From Notoacmeibacter marinus (GTDB taxonomy: Bacteria > Pseudomonadota > Alphaproteobacteria > Rhizobiales > Rhizobiaceae), in assembly GCF_002238045.1 (NCBI RefSeq), contig NZ_NBYO01000003.1:620001-684000 (forward strand): a DNA stretch of 64,000 nt, given 5' to 3'. Position 1 is the stretch's first letter. Every line of letters begins with the position of its first letter. Below are positions 7,082 through 40,902 of the stretch, in pieces. The notes beneath the pieces were generated by a model, which was not told where the DNA came from, did no database searches, and saw only the letters and a program-made list of their open reading frames with translations. Both the position numbers and the translations under genes were made by a program.

Positions 7082-9487
7082 TCAGGCAACGTCGCGGGAT
7101 GACGGCGTCTGCTTATCCTCGACGCCGGGATTCATGCCGATCATTCGACGCAAATCATAGTCTGAGGCGGGCCGGGCGAACAGATAACCCTGGCCGTAAT
7201 CGCAGCCCAACCGCCGCAACTCCTCCGCCTGCCATTCTTCCTCGATGCCCTCTGCGGTCACCGGCAGGTTCAGCATCTGGGCCAGGCTGATCATGGCCCG
7301 AATGAGCGTATCCGACGTTGCACCACCCTCGACCGGCTTCTGCTGAAGGCTGGAGACGAATGAGCGGTCGATCTTGATCTTGTCGAACGCGAAGGATTGC
7401 AGATAGCTCAATGACGAGTAACCGGTGCCGAAATCGTCCAGAATGATCCGAACGCCATGCTCGCGCAGCTGCGCGATTGTTTCCAGCGCGAGATTTGCCT
7501 CTTCGAGAAAGACCGTCTCGGTCAGTTCGAGCTCCAGCCGCGATGCAGGGAAACCGGTTTCCTGCAAAATGGTGAGAACGCTTTGCCTGAAACCCGGACA
7601 TAGAATCTGCTTGGCCGATACATTCACGGAAAGCGAAACCTTCTCGTTCCAGTCTGTGGCCGCCCGACAGCCATTGAGAAGAACCCACTCGCCGATCTCA
7701 TGGATCAGCCCGCTTTCTTCGGCAATCGGAACGAAGACCTGGGGTGAAACGAAACCATGCTGGGCGCTGTTCCAGCGCAACAGGACTTCGACGCTGGAGA
7801 CGACGCCGCTGTCGAGTTCCACGATGGGCTGATAAACGAGACGAAGCTCATTCCTGTCGATCGCGTCGCGAAGACTGACCTCCAGTTTCTTGCGGTTCTG
7901 GGCCCGCCGATCCATGCCGGCAATATATCGTCTGAACTGGTTTCGACCTTCGCTCTTTGCACGATACAGCGCCAGGTCAGCCCGATTGGTCAGATCCGAG
8001 AGGGAGGCGGCATCTTCCGGGAACAGCGCATAGCCGACCGATCCGCCGATCGTCACGGTTCCGCCCTGCAGTTCGAACGGTTCGGCCAGGCAATCAACGA
8101 TGCTTCGTGTCAGGTCCTGGATAGGGGCCTCATCGGTCTTGTCATCGGCATCCTGCCGCAATGGCGCTGCGGCGAGAAACTCGTCGCCGCCAACCCTGGC
8201 GCAAATTGCGTTCGGCGCCGCGTCGCCGGCGCAGCGCCTCAGTCGCTTCGAAACCGCAATCAACAATTCGTCACCGGCAGCATGCCCGAGCGAATCATTG
8301 ACCAGTTTGAACCGGTCCAGATCGATATGCAGGCAGGCAAAGGGCCGGTCCTGTTCGATCCAGGGGTCGACCGTATCCGTGAAAAGCGTCCGATTGGGCA
8401 TTTCGGTCAGCGGATCGTGCGTCGCCAGGAACTTGATCTTTTCCTCCGCCAGCTTGGTTTCGGTGACATCGCTGATCAGTCCCCGATAGCCAAGAAAATC
8501 CCCGTTCGAGCCGAAGATCGGTTTGCCGCTTATCGCAAACCAAAGGCTCTCCTCGTCCGCGCGGGGAAAGGAGACGAGGTAGTCGTGGAACTTTCTGGGT
8601 CGTGACAGAACACCGCTCAGTTCGCTCCGTTCCTGCCGATTGTTCACGCCGGCCAGATCGCGAATGCTCCAGGACAATCCCTCCCGAGCCTGTCCAAGCA
8701 GTGTTTCGATCGCCTTGGGCATGCGCGTGATGCGACCGTAGCTGTCGCATTCCCAGGGCCATGTGCGAACGCCGTCCTCATACTCTTTCAGAAGCAGAGC
8801 GATCATATCCTGCTTTTCCTGCAGGGATTCGCGAATGATGAACTGACGCGTCATGTAGTCGGACTGCTTGATGCAGTTCACGCCGGCGACGAGCGTGAAG
8901 GCGATGTTCATGATGGCCGCGGCCACAAGATGTACATCGCCGAAAAGGAAGAATGCCACGGTGTTCAGCGAAGCGGTCGTGACCAGCCAGGCCAACGCCG
9001 CGGAAGGAACCGGATGCAGAACGGTCGGCCCGAGAATCACGCCGCCGACGGCCAGCCCGTTGATGATCAACTGGTCATGGCCGATCGAGACCGGCAAAAG
9101 ATAGAAGAAGATGATCGACCAGCAGGACGCCATCACGATGCTCTGATGCACGATCCGTCGGGTCGTCCTTTCGGACCCGGAATAGGGCCGCATACGATCC
9201 CGCCTCAGCCGCATGATCAACGCGACGGTCGATAGCGATATTTGAATCGCCACCCACACGAAGAGCACGGAATCCACTCCGTGATCGACAAACCAGTAAA
9301 CCATGAAGACGGCGGCGATGACGTTGAATACGGTGAAGGGCGTCAGATTGTTCATCAGCGCCGTCACGCGTTCGCTACGGAGCTGCCTTGCGGTCAGTTC
9401 ATCGAACTGATCGGCGCGAAGACGGCTGAGTATACTCCGTAGCTGCGCTTTTTGCCGGGCTAAAATGCGACGAAACCGTCTGAACAT
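7082..9487 (-). CDS. Membrane-bound PAS-GGDEF-EAL protein (c-di-GMP synthesis/breakdown)
   Basis: An 801-residue sensor enzyme. About six membrane segments occupy residues 45-210, a PAS-like domain follows to about 340, then GGDEF (about 345-520) and EAL (about 530-785). The GGDEF motif is intact (RVGGDEF). No RxxD inhibitory site is visible at the usual distance before it. EAL residues are all present: EVL in place of EAL (Glu kept), VNVSAKQ, ELTET, LDDFGTGYSS, KIDRSF, AEG and QGYLF. Both activities are therefore possible. The start is set by agagga upstream of an ATG; a longer frame upstream has no ribosome site. A perfect CtrA-type site lies 42 bases upstream. Confidence 0.9.
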   Translation of the reverse strand: MFRRFRRILARQKAQLRSILSRLRADQFDELTARQLRSERVTALMNNLTPFTVFNVIAAVFMVYWFVDHGVDSVLFVWVAIQISLSTVALIMRLRRDRMRPYSGSERTTRRIVHQSIVMASCWSIIFFYLLPVSIGHDQLIINGLAVGGVILGPTVLHPVPSAALAWLVTTASLNTVAFFLFGDVHLVAAAIMNIAFTLVAGVNCIKQSDYMTRQFIIRESLQEKQDMIALLLKEYEDGVRTWPWECDSYGRITRMPKAIETLLGQAREGLSWSIRDLAGVNNRQERSELSGVLSRPRKFHDYLVSFPRADEESLWFAISGKPIFGSNGDFLGYRGLISDVTETKLAEEKIKFLATHDPLTEMPNRTLFTDTVDPWIEQDRPFACLHIDLDRFKLVNDSLGHAAGDELLIAVSKRLRRCAGDAAPNAICARVGGDEFLAAAPLRQDADDKTDEAPIQDLTRSIVDCLAEPFELQGGTVTIGGSVGYALFPEDAASLSDLTNRADLALYRAKSEGRNQFRRYIAGMDRRAQNRKKLEVSLRDAIDRNELRLVYQPIVELDSGVVSSVEVLLRWNSAQHGFVSPQVFVPIAEESGLIHEIGEWVLLNGCRAATDWNEKVSLSVNVSAKQILCPGFRQSVLTILQETGFPASRLELELTETVFLEEANLALETIAQLREHGVRIILDDFGTGYSSLSYLQSFAFDKIKIDRSFVSSLQQKPVEGGATSDTLIRAMISLAQMLNLPVTAEGIEEEWQAEELRRLGCDYGQGYLFARPASDYDLRRMIGMNPGVEDKQTPSSRDVA

Positions 9488-9528
9488 TGCTGTGTCCTCT
9501 GCAATATCGAAAGCATCGCAGAGGCGCG

Positions 9529-9543
9529 TTAAATGCGGCTTAA
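9529..9543 (-). promoter_or_regulatory. Candidate CtrA binding site (TTAA-N7-TTAA)
   Basis: The sequence is a perfect full CtrA consensus: two TTAA half-sites separated by exactly seven bases (ATGCGGC). It lies 42 bases upstream of the GGDEF-EAL start codon, in a slightly AT-richer 257-base gap. I found no other perfect full site in the window. CtrA is the cell-cycle and motility regulator of alphaproteobacteria. Binding here is inferred from consensus and position only. Confidence 0.5.
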
Positions 9544-9744
9544 TGCCTTTGTGCCGGCCCAATAGTCGCATTCATTGCGTCAACAAATGGTTATTCTTCA
9601 AATCAGGCATGCCGAAATCTTGGTGAAACCTGGCGGAATCAATCGATTTAGCGTGCTGCGGTCGCGAAGTTTTCCGGAAACCAAGCAGCATCGCCGCCCA
9701 TAGTCGATCAAATCAAGCGCATTTGTGCCATGTCTGGAAAGTTC

Positions 9745-9819
9745 TGGCTGGGGCGGCAGGATTCGAACCTGCGAATGGCGGCACCAAAAGCCGCTGCCTT
9801 ACCGCTTGGCGACGCCCCA
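9745..9819 (-). tRNA. tRNA-Gln (anticodon UUG)
   Basis: Read on the minus strand, the sequence folds as a complete tRNA. The 7-base acceptor stem (TGGGGCG with CGCCCCA) has the U1-A72 pair typical of tRNA-Gln. The anticodon loop is TTTTGGT with anticodon TTG, the T arm contains GGTTCGAATCC, and CCA is encoded. The expected partner promoter would lie in 9820-9965. No clear terminator follows it. Confidence 0.97.
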
Positions 9820-9965: not shown

Positions 9966-10871
9966 ATGAAATTCGATCGTGATTTCGAACCGTGCCATGG
10001 CGGCGGCGTCCGCGTCGCCGAAAACGTGCTGCGAGTGACATGCGCCAATATGTCGCCTTTCACTTTCCAGGGCACCAACTCCTACATCATCGGCGATAAA
10101 TCCGTCGTGGTGCTCGATCCCGGCCCCATGGATGAGAACCATCTGGAAACGCTTATCTCCGCCATCGGTGGCCGGCCCGTCAGCCATATTCTCGTCAGCC
10201 ATACCCATCGCGACCACTCGCCATTGGCACGGACCTTGCAGGCGCGGGTCGGTGGCGAAATCGTGGCCGAAGGTCCGCACCGCGCCGCCCGCGACCTCTC
10301 CGTGAACGAAGAAAACCGTCTGGACGCATCGGGCGACCATGATTTCAGGCCCGACCGGACAGTCGGCGATGGCGAGACGGTCGAAGCCGACGGATTCAGC
10401 TTCACTGCGCTACATACGCCCGGTCATACGACGAACCATCTGTGTTTCGCCCTCGACGACACGGGAATTCTGTTTTCGGCCGACCATGTCATGGCCTGGT
10501 CCACCACCATCGTGGCGCCACCGGACGGCAGCATGAGCGATTACATGGCCTCGCTCGATCATCTGATGGACCGTCGTGACGACCGCCTTTATCTTCCCGG
10601 CCACGGCGGACCGGTCGTCAAACCGGCTTCGTTCCTGCGCGGGTTGAAGACCCATCGCAGAATGCGCGAAGGGGCGATTCTGAAACGGCTATCGGTCGGC
10701 GACAGGACTATTCCGGGCATGGTGGGCGTGATCTATCGCGACATCGATCCGCGCCTGCACGGCGCTGCCGCCCTCAATGTCTTCGCGCATCTGGAGGCGC
10801 TGATCGAGAATGGCTCCGTTCGCTGCGACGACGACGCGCCGCGCCTCGAAAGCTATTATTATCCGGCCTGA
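9966..10871 (+). CDS. MBL-fold metallo-hydrolase (LACTB2/RNase-Z-like class)
   Basis: A 301-residue beta-lactamase-fold hydrolase. The binuclear metal site is complete: VSHTHRDHSPL (HxHxDH), HTPGHTTNH, and FSADHVM, with a final PGHGG. The C-terminal part from about residue 230 resembles the winged-helix domain seen in LACTB2-like proteins. The cellular substrate is unknown; family members cut RNA or hydrolyse thioesters. The start has aagggg just upstream. It stands alone between the tRNA and a convergent DUF1499 gene. Confidence 0.88.
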   Translation: MKFDRDFEPCHGGGVRVAENVLRVTCANMSPFTFQGTNSYIIGDKSVVVLDPGPMDENHLETLISAIGGRPVSHILVSHTHRDHSPLARTLQARVGGEIVAEGPHRAARDLSVNEENRLDASGDHDFRPDRTVGDGETVEADGFSFTALHTPGHTTNHLCFALDDTGILFSADHVMAWSTTIVAPPDGSMSDYMASLDHLMDRRDDRLYLPGHGGPVVKPASFLRGLKTHRRMREGAILKRLSVGDRTIPGMVGVIYRDIDPRLHGAAALNVFAHLEALIENGSVRCDDDAPRLESYYYPA

Positions 10872-20011: not shown

Positions 20012-21208
<1,197 letters not shown>

Positions 21209-21333
21209 TTACCCGACAGGATGAAGATTGCGTGAATGGTGTACCGAAACGGCGCAAGCGGGTTGAACGCGAGGCGGCCGAACCGATATAGGCCGCTGCA
21301 TTCGACCGCCCTTCTTGCAGAAAGCCATCTTCC

Positions 21334-26590: not shown

Positions 26591-29497
26591 GTGACGCGCA
26601 ACGAAGCGCAGACTGACATATGGCGCTGGCTGGCAGCATCTCTGGTGTTGCTTGCCGGACTTCTTCTGCCAGGCGCTGGACTTCTTCACGCGCAGGATGA
26701 AACCATTCGAGTGGAAGCCGACGATCTGGCGCTCGATCTTTCGCGCGCAGTCGCCATCACCTCCAACGGATCGCGGACGTTCCAGGTTTCTGCGACGCCG
26801 GGTGAAGACGGCATCGTTCGGCGGATCGAAGTGGAGGCCCTCGGCAGCCCGCCTACTGGTCACTGGGCCGTCCTGTCCCTAGCCAATGCCAGCGGCCAGC
26901 AGATCGACAGGCTGATCGTCGCGCCGCATTACCGGCTGGTGGGTTCTGGCCTGTGGAAGCCCGATCTCGGTGCCCAGCGCATCGTGAACATCACCCCTTC
27001 GGAAGGTTTCGCGCTTGACCGCCAGCCCAGCGACGATGCGGACATCTTCAACCTAACGCTCAACCCGAACAGTGTCGTGACGCTCGTGCTGGAACTGGCG
27101 ACGCCGGAATTGCCGCAGCTCTACATCTGGGAACCGGAAGCCTATAAGGACACGATCAATGCCTACACGCTGTTCCGAGGCATCGTGATCGGCATCTCCG
27201 GGCTGCTGGCCCTTTTCCTGACCATTCTCTTCGTGGTGCGCGGCACGGTAATGTTTCCCGCCGCCGCCGCCCTCGCCTGGGCCGTCCTGTTCTACATTTC
27301 CGTGGATTTCGGCTTTTTGGGTCGTCTTGTCGGAATCACGATCGGCAGCGAGCCGGTCTGGCGGGCAACGGCGGAGATCGCACTGGCCGGAACGCTTGTT
27401 ATTTTCCTGTTCGCCTATCTGAACCTGTCGCGCTGGCACAAGCATTTCAGTCACGCCGCGCTTGTCTGGCTGACGGCACTGGGCTGTCTTGTCGCGCTCG
27501 CCGTCTTCTACCCCAATTTCTCCGCTGGCGTGGCGCGCATTTCCCTGGCGCTGACGGCCGTTGTCGGTCTCGGCGTCATTATCTGGCAGGCCACGCACCG
27601 CTACGACCGGGCGATCATGCTGGTGCCAAGCTGGGCGGCGGTCGTCGCCTGGGTGGTCGCCATGGGCATGACGGTGGCCGGCGCGATAGACAATGATGTC
27701 GTTCAGCCGGCGCTTGGCGGTGGGCTGGTGCTCATCGTGCTTCTGATCGGCTTTACCGTGATGCAGCATGCCTTTTCCGGCGGCGCGGTCCGGCAGGGCC
27801 TGTTCTCCGACGTCGAACGCCAGGCGCTGGCCATGTCGGGATCGGGCGATGTGGTGTTTGACTGGGACGTTCTGAGCGACCGGGTAGTGACCCGGCCGGA
27901 TGTCGCGCCGATGATCGGACTACAGCGCAACGCCCTGCGCGGCCCGGCGCGCAATTGGGTCGAAGCGATGCATATCGACGATCGCGACCATTTCCGCACC
28001 ACGCTCGACATGATCCTCGAGCATCGGCGCGGTCGCATTCGCCAGGATTTCCGCCTGCGCGGCGAAGACGGCCATCACCACTGGTACAGCCTGAAGGCAC
28101 GGCCTGTTGTCGGCGCCGATGGCGAGGTGGTTCGCTGCGTCGGAACCATGAGCGAGATCACCGAACAGAAGAAGGCGGAAGAGCGCCTACTCTACGATTC
28201 GGTGCACGACCATATGACAGGACTGCCGAACCGCGAGCTTTTCATGGACCGGTTAAGCGCGCTCATCGCCGCGGCGAAGGATGACGATCGGGTCAGGCCG
28301 ACGATTCTTGCCATCGATATCGACCGCTTCAAGACGGTCAATGAATCGCTCGGCATCTCGGTCGGCGACACGATCCTGTTGACAGTGGCGCGCCGTCTTG
28401 CCCGCATCTGCCGCAGCGAGGATACGCTGTCGCGCTTTTCGGGCGATCACTTCATGATTTCACTGGCCGGGCGACCCGATCCGTCCGAGGTTAAAACCTT
28501 TACCGCTCAGGTGAAGAAGACGATTTCTGCTCCAATCAACTTCGCCAATCAGGAAATCGTCCTGACGCCCTCCATTGGCGTCGCAGGCTGGACGCAGCAG
28601 CATGGCAGCGCCCAGGATCTGGTCAAGGATGCGGAACTGGCGCTGCATCAGGCCAAACGCTTCGGCGGCGACAGGATCGAACCCTTCCGCCCCGCTTTCC
28701 GGACGCTCGGCTCGGATCATCTGCACATCGAGGCGGATCTGCATCGCGCGCTCGATAATGGCGAACTGCATGTCCTCTACCAGCCGATCATCAGTGTCGG
28801 CACGATGAGCGTGGCCGGTTTCGAAGCGCTGATCCGCTGGAACCATCCCAAGCGCGGCCCGATCGCACCGTCCGACTTCGTGCCGATCGCCGAGAATTCG
28901 GGGCTGATCGCCCGGCTCGGCCTGTTCGTCATGCAGCGTGCCGCCGACGACATTGCAATGATCTCCCGCAATAGCGGGCGCGACGACATCTATGTCGCGG
29001 TCAATCTGTCGTCGAGCCAGTTCCTTCGCCAAGACCTCGTATCCGACGTGAAGTCCGTCCTGACCCGCACGGGCGTGAAGCCTCAGACCTTCCGTCTCGA
29101 ACTGACCGAATCGATGGTGATGAGCAACCCGGAACAGAATGCGCGTGTGCTGGAGCGGCTCGACGCGCTCGGGATCGGTCTTTCCATCGACGATTTCGGC
29201 ACAGGCTATTCGGCGCTGTCCTATCTGACACGCTTCCCCTTCGACTGCATCAAGATCGACCGTTCCTTCGTCATCGATCGGTCCGAGCGCTCACATGCTC
29301 TTCTGCGATCCCTCATTCAACTCGGCCATGACATCGGCATGACTATCGTCGTCGAAGGCGTCGACGACGACGAAACGCTGGCGCTTTTGCAGGAAGTGGG
29401 CTGCGACTACGTGCAGAGCTTCATGTTCGGCAAACCGGTCGATGTTCATACGGCTCAGGATTACTGCGCGCAGGAGCCTTCGGCTGCGGCGCAGTAG
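26591..29497 (+). CDS. 7TM sensor PAS-GGDEF-EAL protein with degenerate GGDEF (likely c-di-GMP phosphodiesterase)
   Basis: A 968-residue protein. A signal segment (residues 12-35) precedes a periplasmic beta domain (about 38-175), seven membrane helices (about 185-395) resembling the 7TMR-DISM arrangement, a PAS/PAC domain (about 415-535), GGDEF (540-705) and EAL (715-960). The GGDEF motif is degenerate (RFSGDHF), so cyclase activity is unlikely. The EAL site is complete: FEALIRW, VNLSSSQ, ELTES, IDDFGTGYSA, KIDRSF, VEG, QSFMF. The start is GTG with ggagcggg upstream. Confidence 0.9.
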   Translation: MTRNEAQTDIWRWLAASLVLLAGLLLPGAGLLHAQDETIRVEADDLALDLSRAVAITSNGSRTFQVSATPGEDGIVRRIEVEALGSPPTGHWAVLSLANASGQQIDRLIVAPHYRLVGSGLWKPDLGAQRIVNITPSEGFALDRQPSDDADIFNLTLNPNSVVTLVLELATPELPQLYIWEPEAYKDTINAYTLFRGIVIGISGLLALFLTILFVVRGTVMFPAAAALAWAVLFYISVDFGFLGRLVGITIGSEPVWRATAEIALAGTLVIFLFAYLNLSRWHKHFSHAALVWLTALGCLVALAVFYPNFSAGVARISLALTAVVGLGVIIWQATHRYDRAIMLVPSWAAVVAWVVAMGMTVAGAIDNDVVQPALGGGLVLIVLLIGFTVMQHAFSGGAVRQGLFSDVERQALAMSGSGDVVFDWDVLSDRVVTRPDVAPMIGLQRNALRGPARNWVEAMHIDDRDHFRTTLDMILEHRRGRIRQDFRLRGEDGHHHWYSLKARPVVGADGEVVRCVGTMSEITEQKKAEERLLYDSVHDHMTGLPNRELFMDRLSALIAAAKDDDRVRPTILAIDIDRFKTVNESLGISVGDTILLTVARRLARICRSEDTLSRFSGDHFMISLAGRPDPSEVKTFTAQVKKTISAPINFANQEIVLTPSIGVAGWTQQHGSAQDLVKDAELALHQAKRFGGDRIEPFRPAFRTLGSDHLHIEADLHRALDNGELHVLYQPIISVGTMSVAGFEALIRWNHPKRGPIAPSDFVPIAENSGLIARLGLFVMQRAADDIAMISRNSGRDDIYVAVNLSSSQFLRQDLVSDVKSVLTRTGVKPQTFRLELTESMVMSNPEQNARVLERLDALGIGLSIDDFGTGYSALSYLTRFPFDCIKIDRSFVIDRSERSHALLRSLIQLGHDIGMTIVVEGVDDDETLALLQEVGCDYVQSFMFGKPVDVHTAQDYCAQEPSAAAQ

Positions 29498-40580: not shown

Positions 40581-40902
40581 CGCCGTACCGTCTCCTCGAT
40601 CGGATTGCCCCGATGGCGGCCTGCGCTACGCGTCAACGCCGCCTGTGATCCGCGTTCTCAAACCACACTCCATGCGAGTGTGCAACATACAGTTTGGTCG
40701 CAAGACCCGATCCTACGGGGCAGTAAGAATAACCTTCTTCTAATGCGCCGGGCCGCGTTCGAAAAGGGCCGGTAGCACGAAAATGCCTCCTCCTTTTGGA
40801 CGTATTGCGGTGACAGGGGAAGGACATCGCCGCCCTTTGGCTGGCAAAATGTCAACGAACGCGCCATGTTGGCGTCAAGACGAATCGTTCGGAGATCGAC
40901 CC
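40581..40902. other. Intergenic region between divergent coxB and ialB-like genes
   Basis: This 322-base gap carries no convincing gene on either strand. It must hold the divergent promoters of the cox operon and the IalB-like gene. A short imperfectly useful hairpin (CACACT/AGTGTG, 40664-40682) is present without a T-run. I saw no recognisable Fnr, RegA or CtrA consensus. Confidence 0.6.

Follow-up and report, generated by a model that had tools for sequence, protein, structure and literature searches.

Does a perfect TTAA-N7-TTAA motif ahead of a gene for a bifunctional GGDEF-EAL protein place that gene under the cell-cycle regulator CtrA? The question arises from a 64-kb stretch of the Notoacmeibacter marinus genome (the window; positions 620001-684000 of contig C3 in the assembly labelled G000), which was compared with two other Notoacmeibacter genomes, G001 and G002. 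From the promoter, its conservation and a set of companion loci, we predict that the gene is under direct CtrA control, by activation or repression, with a probability of roughly 0.78. Regulation of c-di-GMP genes by CtrA has been described before, and the GGDEF-EAL gene would be one more case.

A single full site in the window

A pattern scan of the whole window returned one perfect full site, at 9529-9543 (TTAAATGCGGCTTAA on the forward strand and TTAAGCCGCATTTAAC on the gene strand). The initial annotation had described a full consensus 42 bases ahead of the start codon and no other in 64 kb, and both statements agree with the scan and with recounted coordinates: 42 positions lead from 9529 to the A of the ATG at 9487, with 41 bases in between, and the 5' end of the motif lies 56 bases from that ATG. 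The features of the promoter region are collected in Table 1.

Table 1. Features of the GGDEF-EAL gene and its upstream region (window coordinates).
Feature	Position	Strand	Basis or remark
GGDEF-EAL gene, 801-aa protein	7082..9487	-	PAS, GGDEF and EAL domains
Probable RBS AGAGG, common to three genomes	9496..9500	-	Alignment; assignment presumptive
Perfect full CtrA box, TTAA-GCCGCAT-TTAA then C	9529..9543	-	Pattern, alignment, matrix
Weaker CtrA-like box, tentative, ATAACCATTTGTTGA	9580..9594	-	Matrix, 10.2 bits
tRNA-Gln(TTG), neighbour upstream of the GGDEF-EAL gene	9745..9819	- (same strand)	

The annotation's further estimate, that chance would give well under one such site per window, stands against shuffled versions of the window (mean 0.05 perfect sites, at least one in 5 of 100 shuffles) but not against the genome itself, where 23 perfect sites in 3,292,184 bases amount to about 0.45 per 64 kb. 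Because G000 holds these 23 sites and 15 of the reversed control pattern AATT-N7-AATT, a single site per window is ordinary for this genome, and rarity in the window was dropped as the main argument despite the low count in the shuffles. Placement and conservation stand out, while the count alone is weak evidence. The genomic density also speaks for the reading, which we consider quite improbable, that the motif arose by chance or is kept for another reason, such as a longer coding frame or a different DNA-binding protein.

When one mismatch was allowed, the scan gave no additional match in the window, against 2.10 expected in all, and TTAA itself occurs in 18 copies, compared with 102 of AATT, 45 of TATA and 137 of ATAT. 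The scarcity of TTAA and the absence of one-mismatch sites are consistent with avoidance of stray sites.

The gene, its product and its start codon

The encoded protein contains a GGDEF domain (PF00990, 117.5 bits), an EAL domain (PF00563, 235.2 bits) and a PAS domain, and a crude hydropathy profile shows about six membrane-spanning-like stretches. The sequences GGDEF, EVLLR, NVSAKQ, ELTE, DDFG, KID and EGIE are all present, which we take to be intact GGDEF and EAL catalytic motifs; no RxxD motif was found ahead of GGDEF. Matches to the protein within the genus stand at 76% (a Notoacmeibacter record) and at 77% and 64% (two genomes). G000 as a whole yields 20 GGDEF and 14 EAL matches, and a tblastn search with the 801-aa protein found no further GGDEF/EAL gene at the loci of the other 22 perfect sites.

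Three further GGDEF-EAL genes were observed. The window carries a second one at 26591-29497 on the forward strand, with 7TMR-DISM and PAS domains; among the 16 highest-scoring matrix hits listed across the window, none precedes it. A paralogue at C2:239151-241424 of G000 is 35% identical; a degenerate CtrA-like box lies upstream of it (locus L204), oppositely oriented and scoring 11.6 bits. In G001, one lies near a perfect site at a locus (L075) with no partner in the other two genomes.

The longest open frame of the gene begins at an ATG at 9571 and would enclose the site within coding sequence. In G000 and G002 no stop codon interrupts the frame across the site, as retention of the motif for coding reasons would have it. 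Against this, differences between G000 and G002 spread evenly over the codon positions before ATG 9487 (10/8/8) and unevenly after it (5/2/11), and in G001 the frame opens no earlier than -45, downstream of the site at -60. Since the substitutions upstream of ATG 9487 are even and the G001 frame is closed at the site, the surrounding stretch is taken to be non-coding, and the coding reading from ATG 9571 was excluded.

Conservation of the promoter within and beyond the genus

Conservation in orthologous promoters, which the initial annotation had named as a check on the site, holds within the genus: the perfect site is at the same place in all three Notoacmeibacter genomes, 56, 56 and 60 bases from the start of the protein match. 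Sequences were trimmed around the site before alignment, with the register confirmed by the distances to the gene, and strain MSK16QG-6, whose sequence at the site equals that of G002, was not counted separately. In the three-way alignment, all 8 positions of the TTAA halves are invariant, as are 4 of 7 in the N7 that separates them. The stretch from the site to the ATG has 17 invariant columns out of 41, and the non-coding spacer reaching from the tRNA to the site has 38 of 200. At the spacer's own conservation rate, the probability that all eight bases would be kept is roughly 1.7e-6, which weighs against chance; in favour of chance, the comparison comprises three genomes only.

Beyond the genus, a search over 81 genomes was followed by examination of nine full-length matches from other genera (33-39% identical along most of the protein), and none had a perfect site within 700 bases upstream; a one-mismatch site was present within that distance in 3/9 (L023, L025 and L026) and was not counted. 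Among the matches listed outside the genus, full-length identity reaches at most 39% and domain-only identity at most 46%. A search of 61 genomes for the adjacent MBL-fold gene listed 30 loci, 27 of them from other genera. The GGDEF-EAL gene occupies this place in three of the 30, all Notoacmeibacter, and tRNA-Gln lies within the fetched flank in 7 of the 27, nine of which were read further out. At L181/L195, a frame following tRNA-Gln matches the GGDEF part only (35% over 188 aa). Given that the gene stands at this place only inside the genus among the 30 listed loci, the case for conservation rests on the three genomes together with the companion loci.

Companion loci across the genus

The three genomes carry 23, 21 and 25 perfect sites, and the surroundings of every one were compared by the proteins they encode. 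For 13 of 21 G000 loci (15 of 23 sites), each of the two sister species has a perfect site at its orthologous locus, and the flanks of these 13 are recognisably related across the genomes; matches of the chemotaxis-receptor loci L056 and L063 of G000 to L081 in G001 (42% and 35% identity) were taken as those of paralogues and dropped before this count. For the control pattern, from which protein matches of 26-32% identity were likewise excluded, none of 14 loci was conserved in both sisters, while G001 alone shares one and G002 alone two (Fisher P = 1.9e-4 for 13/21 against 0/14); the control pools coding and intergenic sites, some of its flanks measure 1.5 kb against about 2 kb, and one double site in its G002 set is counted twice.

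The conserved loci comprise ftsE with a response regulator; rpoD; an Hpt-domain protein; a 115-aa frame without a family; a 242-aa frame opposite threonylcarbamoyl-AMP synthase; O-acetylhomoserine aminocarboxypropyltransferase; a BTLCP peptidase; hemE; an FtsK/SpoIIIE-family gene; a CarD-family gene; rcdA; a single locus with two outer-membrane beta-barrel genes; and, as the thirteenth, the GGDEF-EAL gene of the window. The response regulator beside ftsE scored 93.2 as CpdR against a cut-off of 180, and the name was withheld; the ftsK call is based on Pfam, its NCBIfam match falling below the cut-off with a fetched stretch that covers part of the gene.

Several of these loci are known CtrA promoters in other species, which further argues against a motif kept by chance or for another reason. 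In Brucella, CtrA is reported to bind the rpoD and ftsE promoters (PMC2877005); in Sinorhizobium meliloti, CtrA motifs are reported at rpoD, ftsE, rcdA and ftsK (PMC3616915); and in Caulobacter, ftsK and rcdA are listed among promoters with both CtrA motif and binding (PMC4287350). Notoacmeibacter resembles Brucella and Sinorhizobium in the conserved boxes at rpoD, ftsE, rcdA and ftsK (PMC2877005, PMC3616915, PMC4433202) and differs from them in the GGDEF-EAL gene beside tRNA-Gln, found only in Notoacmeibacter among the 30 MBL-fold loci listed.

Other perfect-site loci were also observed. An M23 peptidase (EnvC-like) locus and two methyl-accepting chemotaxis receptor loci (L062, L063 and L056) share a perfect site with G002 only. 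At L057 (C1:915100-919200 of G000), a RuvC_III/HNH (Cas9-like) protein and Cas1 are encoded next to each other, and a perfect TTAA-N7-TTAA separates the two frames; the perfect-site loci found in the sister genomes include no partner for it.

Matrix scoring and the regulator

A matrix trained on 42 sites from the other 12 loci, with the GGDEF-EAL locus left out, scores the site at 9529-9543 highest of all places in the window, at 18.5 bits in the orientation of the gene; the best hit outside this promoter reaches 8.6 bits, at 40729. Each training site was turned to end in C where possible, so that the orientation preference is partly built in: of the 42 training sites, 30 carry a following C on one side or both (both in 6 of them), and 12 on neither.

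This bears on whether the box might serve something else, such as a forward-strand transcript or tRNA-Gln. The core is palindromic and binding would have no direction by itself, and the following C is, on the above counts, a weak pointer. Nevertheless, we regard such a target as highly improbable: the motif lies beyond the 3' end of tRNA-Gln, the nearest likely forward-strand gene starts at 9966, past the tRNA, the box keeps its 56-60 bases to the protein match in all three genomes, and C follows the motif on the strand of the GGDEF-EAL gene.

The second-best matrix place in the window is the weaker box at 9580, 51 bases upstream of the perfect site. The spacing of 51 bases is kept in G002 (7.4 bits), the box is missing from G001, and its 10.2 bits were equalled in 52 of 2000 shuffled spacers; as a second CtrA box it is only suggestive.

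The regulator itself is encoded in G000 at C2:559075-559752. The product is a CtrA orthologue by NCBIfam NF045991, where its 418.7 bits exceed the cut-off of 350, and is 81% identical to C. crescentus CtrA; among PDB entries it is closest to 4qpj_C, 'Cell cycle response regulator CtrA', which it matches over the receiver part, residues 1-118. Taken with conservation in the genus and the companion loci ftsE, rpoD, ftsK and rcdA, the presence of CtrA supports, as a prediction, the link to the bifunctional enzyme that the initial annotation had drawn.

The ccrM gene in the same window

The same annotation had pointed to ccrM in the window, and an N6/N4 methylase with a RAMA domain is indeed encoded at 20012-21169, at a distance of 10.5 kb. 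A TTAA-type box is missing from its promoter. A degenerate TTCA-N7-TTCA at -66/-67 scores 6.2-7.5 bits and is identical in the three genomes; the box at -67, with 7.5 bits on the opposite strand and 6.5 on the gene strand, is among the top ten matrix hits of the window. It is possibly a degenerate CtrA box or the site of another regulator. Reports from S. meliloti (PMC4433202) and Brucella (PMC2877005) describe CtrA binding at ccrM, and the box, suggestive at most, was counted neither for nor against a CtrA circuit. The promoter stretch at 21170-21270 (L255-L257) forms a strongly conserved block in the three genomes, which holds the TTCA box and a TAACCAT.

Sign of control and comparison with known systems

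Under the preferred reading, phosphorylated CtrA would bind the box at the GGDEF-EAL promoter and thereby tie transcription of the gene to the cell cycle. The sign of this control is the less secure part. Activation, to which we give close to an even chance, appears somewhat likelier than repression, since full TTAA-N7-TTAA motifs in Caulobacter lie mostly near -35 and mark activation (PMC4287350). Repression, which would keep the enzyme low while CtrA is active and which falls within the overall probability given above, seems rather unlikely on the same Caulobacter evidence, and it has arguments of its own. In Agrobacterium tumefaciens, the dgcB promoter was derepressed when TTAA was changed to AATT in a CtrA motif lying 52 bases ahead of the start codon (PMC7003649), and the distance here, from the 5' end of the motif to the ATG, is similar. 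Moreover, a simple sigma-70 scan of the promoter region found no -35/-10 pair, so that the site could overlap the start region. Binding need not equal control at all, given that CtrA occupies rcdA and cpdR1 of S. meliloti in ChIP-seq and its depletion is reported to leave them without significant change (PMC4433202).

The predicted arrangement has parallels in several species. As here, A. tumefaciens dgcB (Atu1691) is a c-di-GMP gene of a Rhizobiales species, and a CtrA motif precedes its start codon by about 50 bases; unlike the gene described here, it is listed as a GGDEF family protein, and its motif represses, as established by mutation (PMC7003649). In Hyphomonas neptunium, ChIP-seq gives the CtrA consensus TTAA-N7-TTAAC and six c-di-GMP genes are reported as direct CtrA targets (PMC7200025), although this is a stalked budding species. 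The full-motif promoters of Caulobacter likewise place TTAA-N7-TTAA upstream of the gene, ftsK and rcdA included (PMC4287350).

Once produced, the enzyme would change c-di-GMP, with any direction of its activity presumptive, and c-di-GMP may in turn feed back on CckA and hence on CtrA, as it does in other alphaproteobacteria; such feedback to CckA and CtrA has been described in other species (PMC9756655, PMC7200025).

Conserved boxes at the probable origin of replication

Among the 13 conserved loci, one falls between maf and hemE (L059, C1:1035300-1039400 of G000; L084 and L096 in the comparison; L225-L227). GC skew was calculated over twenty 20-kb blocks around it, and is negative in 10 of 11 blocks below 1,035 kb (the 830-kb block being slightly positive) and positive in all nine above 1,039 kb. 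Because the sign changes around the locus, it is the probable origin of replication; DnaA boxes in the region are one-mismatch matches only. A second CtrA-type box stands 240-241 bases further upstream in the three genomes, at 11.2-12.4 bits with a matrix made without the maf-hemE locus.

The hemE gene was matched in 60 of 61 genomes, and 30 loci chosen by hemE alone were listed, 27 of them from other genera. Two of these 27 have a perfect site upstream of hemE; nine, the two included, have a box of at least 9 bits within 900 bases of the gene, and 18 have none. The origin of S. meliloti is described as free of CtrA motifs or binding (PMC4433202), and Brucella CtrA is stated not to bind the origin (PMC2877005).

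A wider, lineage-specific circuit can be proposed, tentatively and with more doubt than confidence, in which CtrA would drive the GGDEF-EAL gene, the resulting c-di-GMP would act on CckA and CtrA, and CtrA would also gate replication through the origin boxes. If bound, these boxes would form a Caulobacter-like arrangement of the kind that the two reports above describe as absent from S. meliloti and Brucella.

Implications

CtrA was not seen in the titles or abstract openings of 12 papers listed for the genus name Notoacmeibacter. With the present comparison, the predicted CtrA regulon of this little-studied genus gains one well-supported c-di-GMP enzyme, and a short list of 13 conserved CtrA-type loci becomes available for it. 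Furthermore, the conserved boxes at the probable origin make direct CtrA control of replication in some Rhizobiales a testable proposition.
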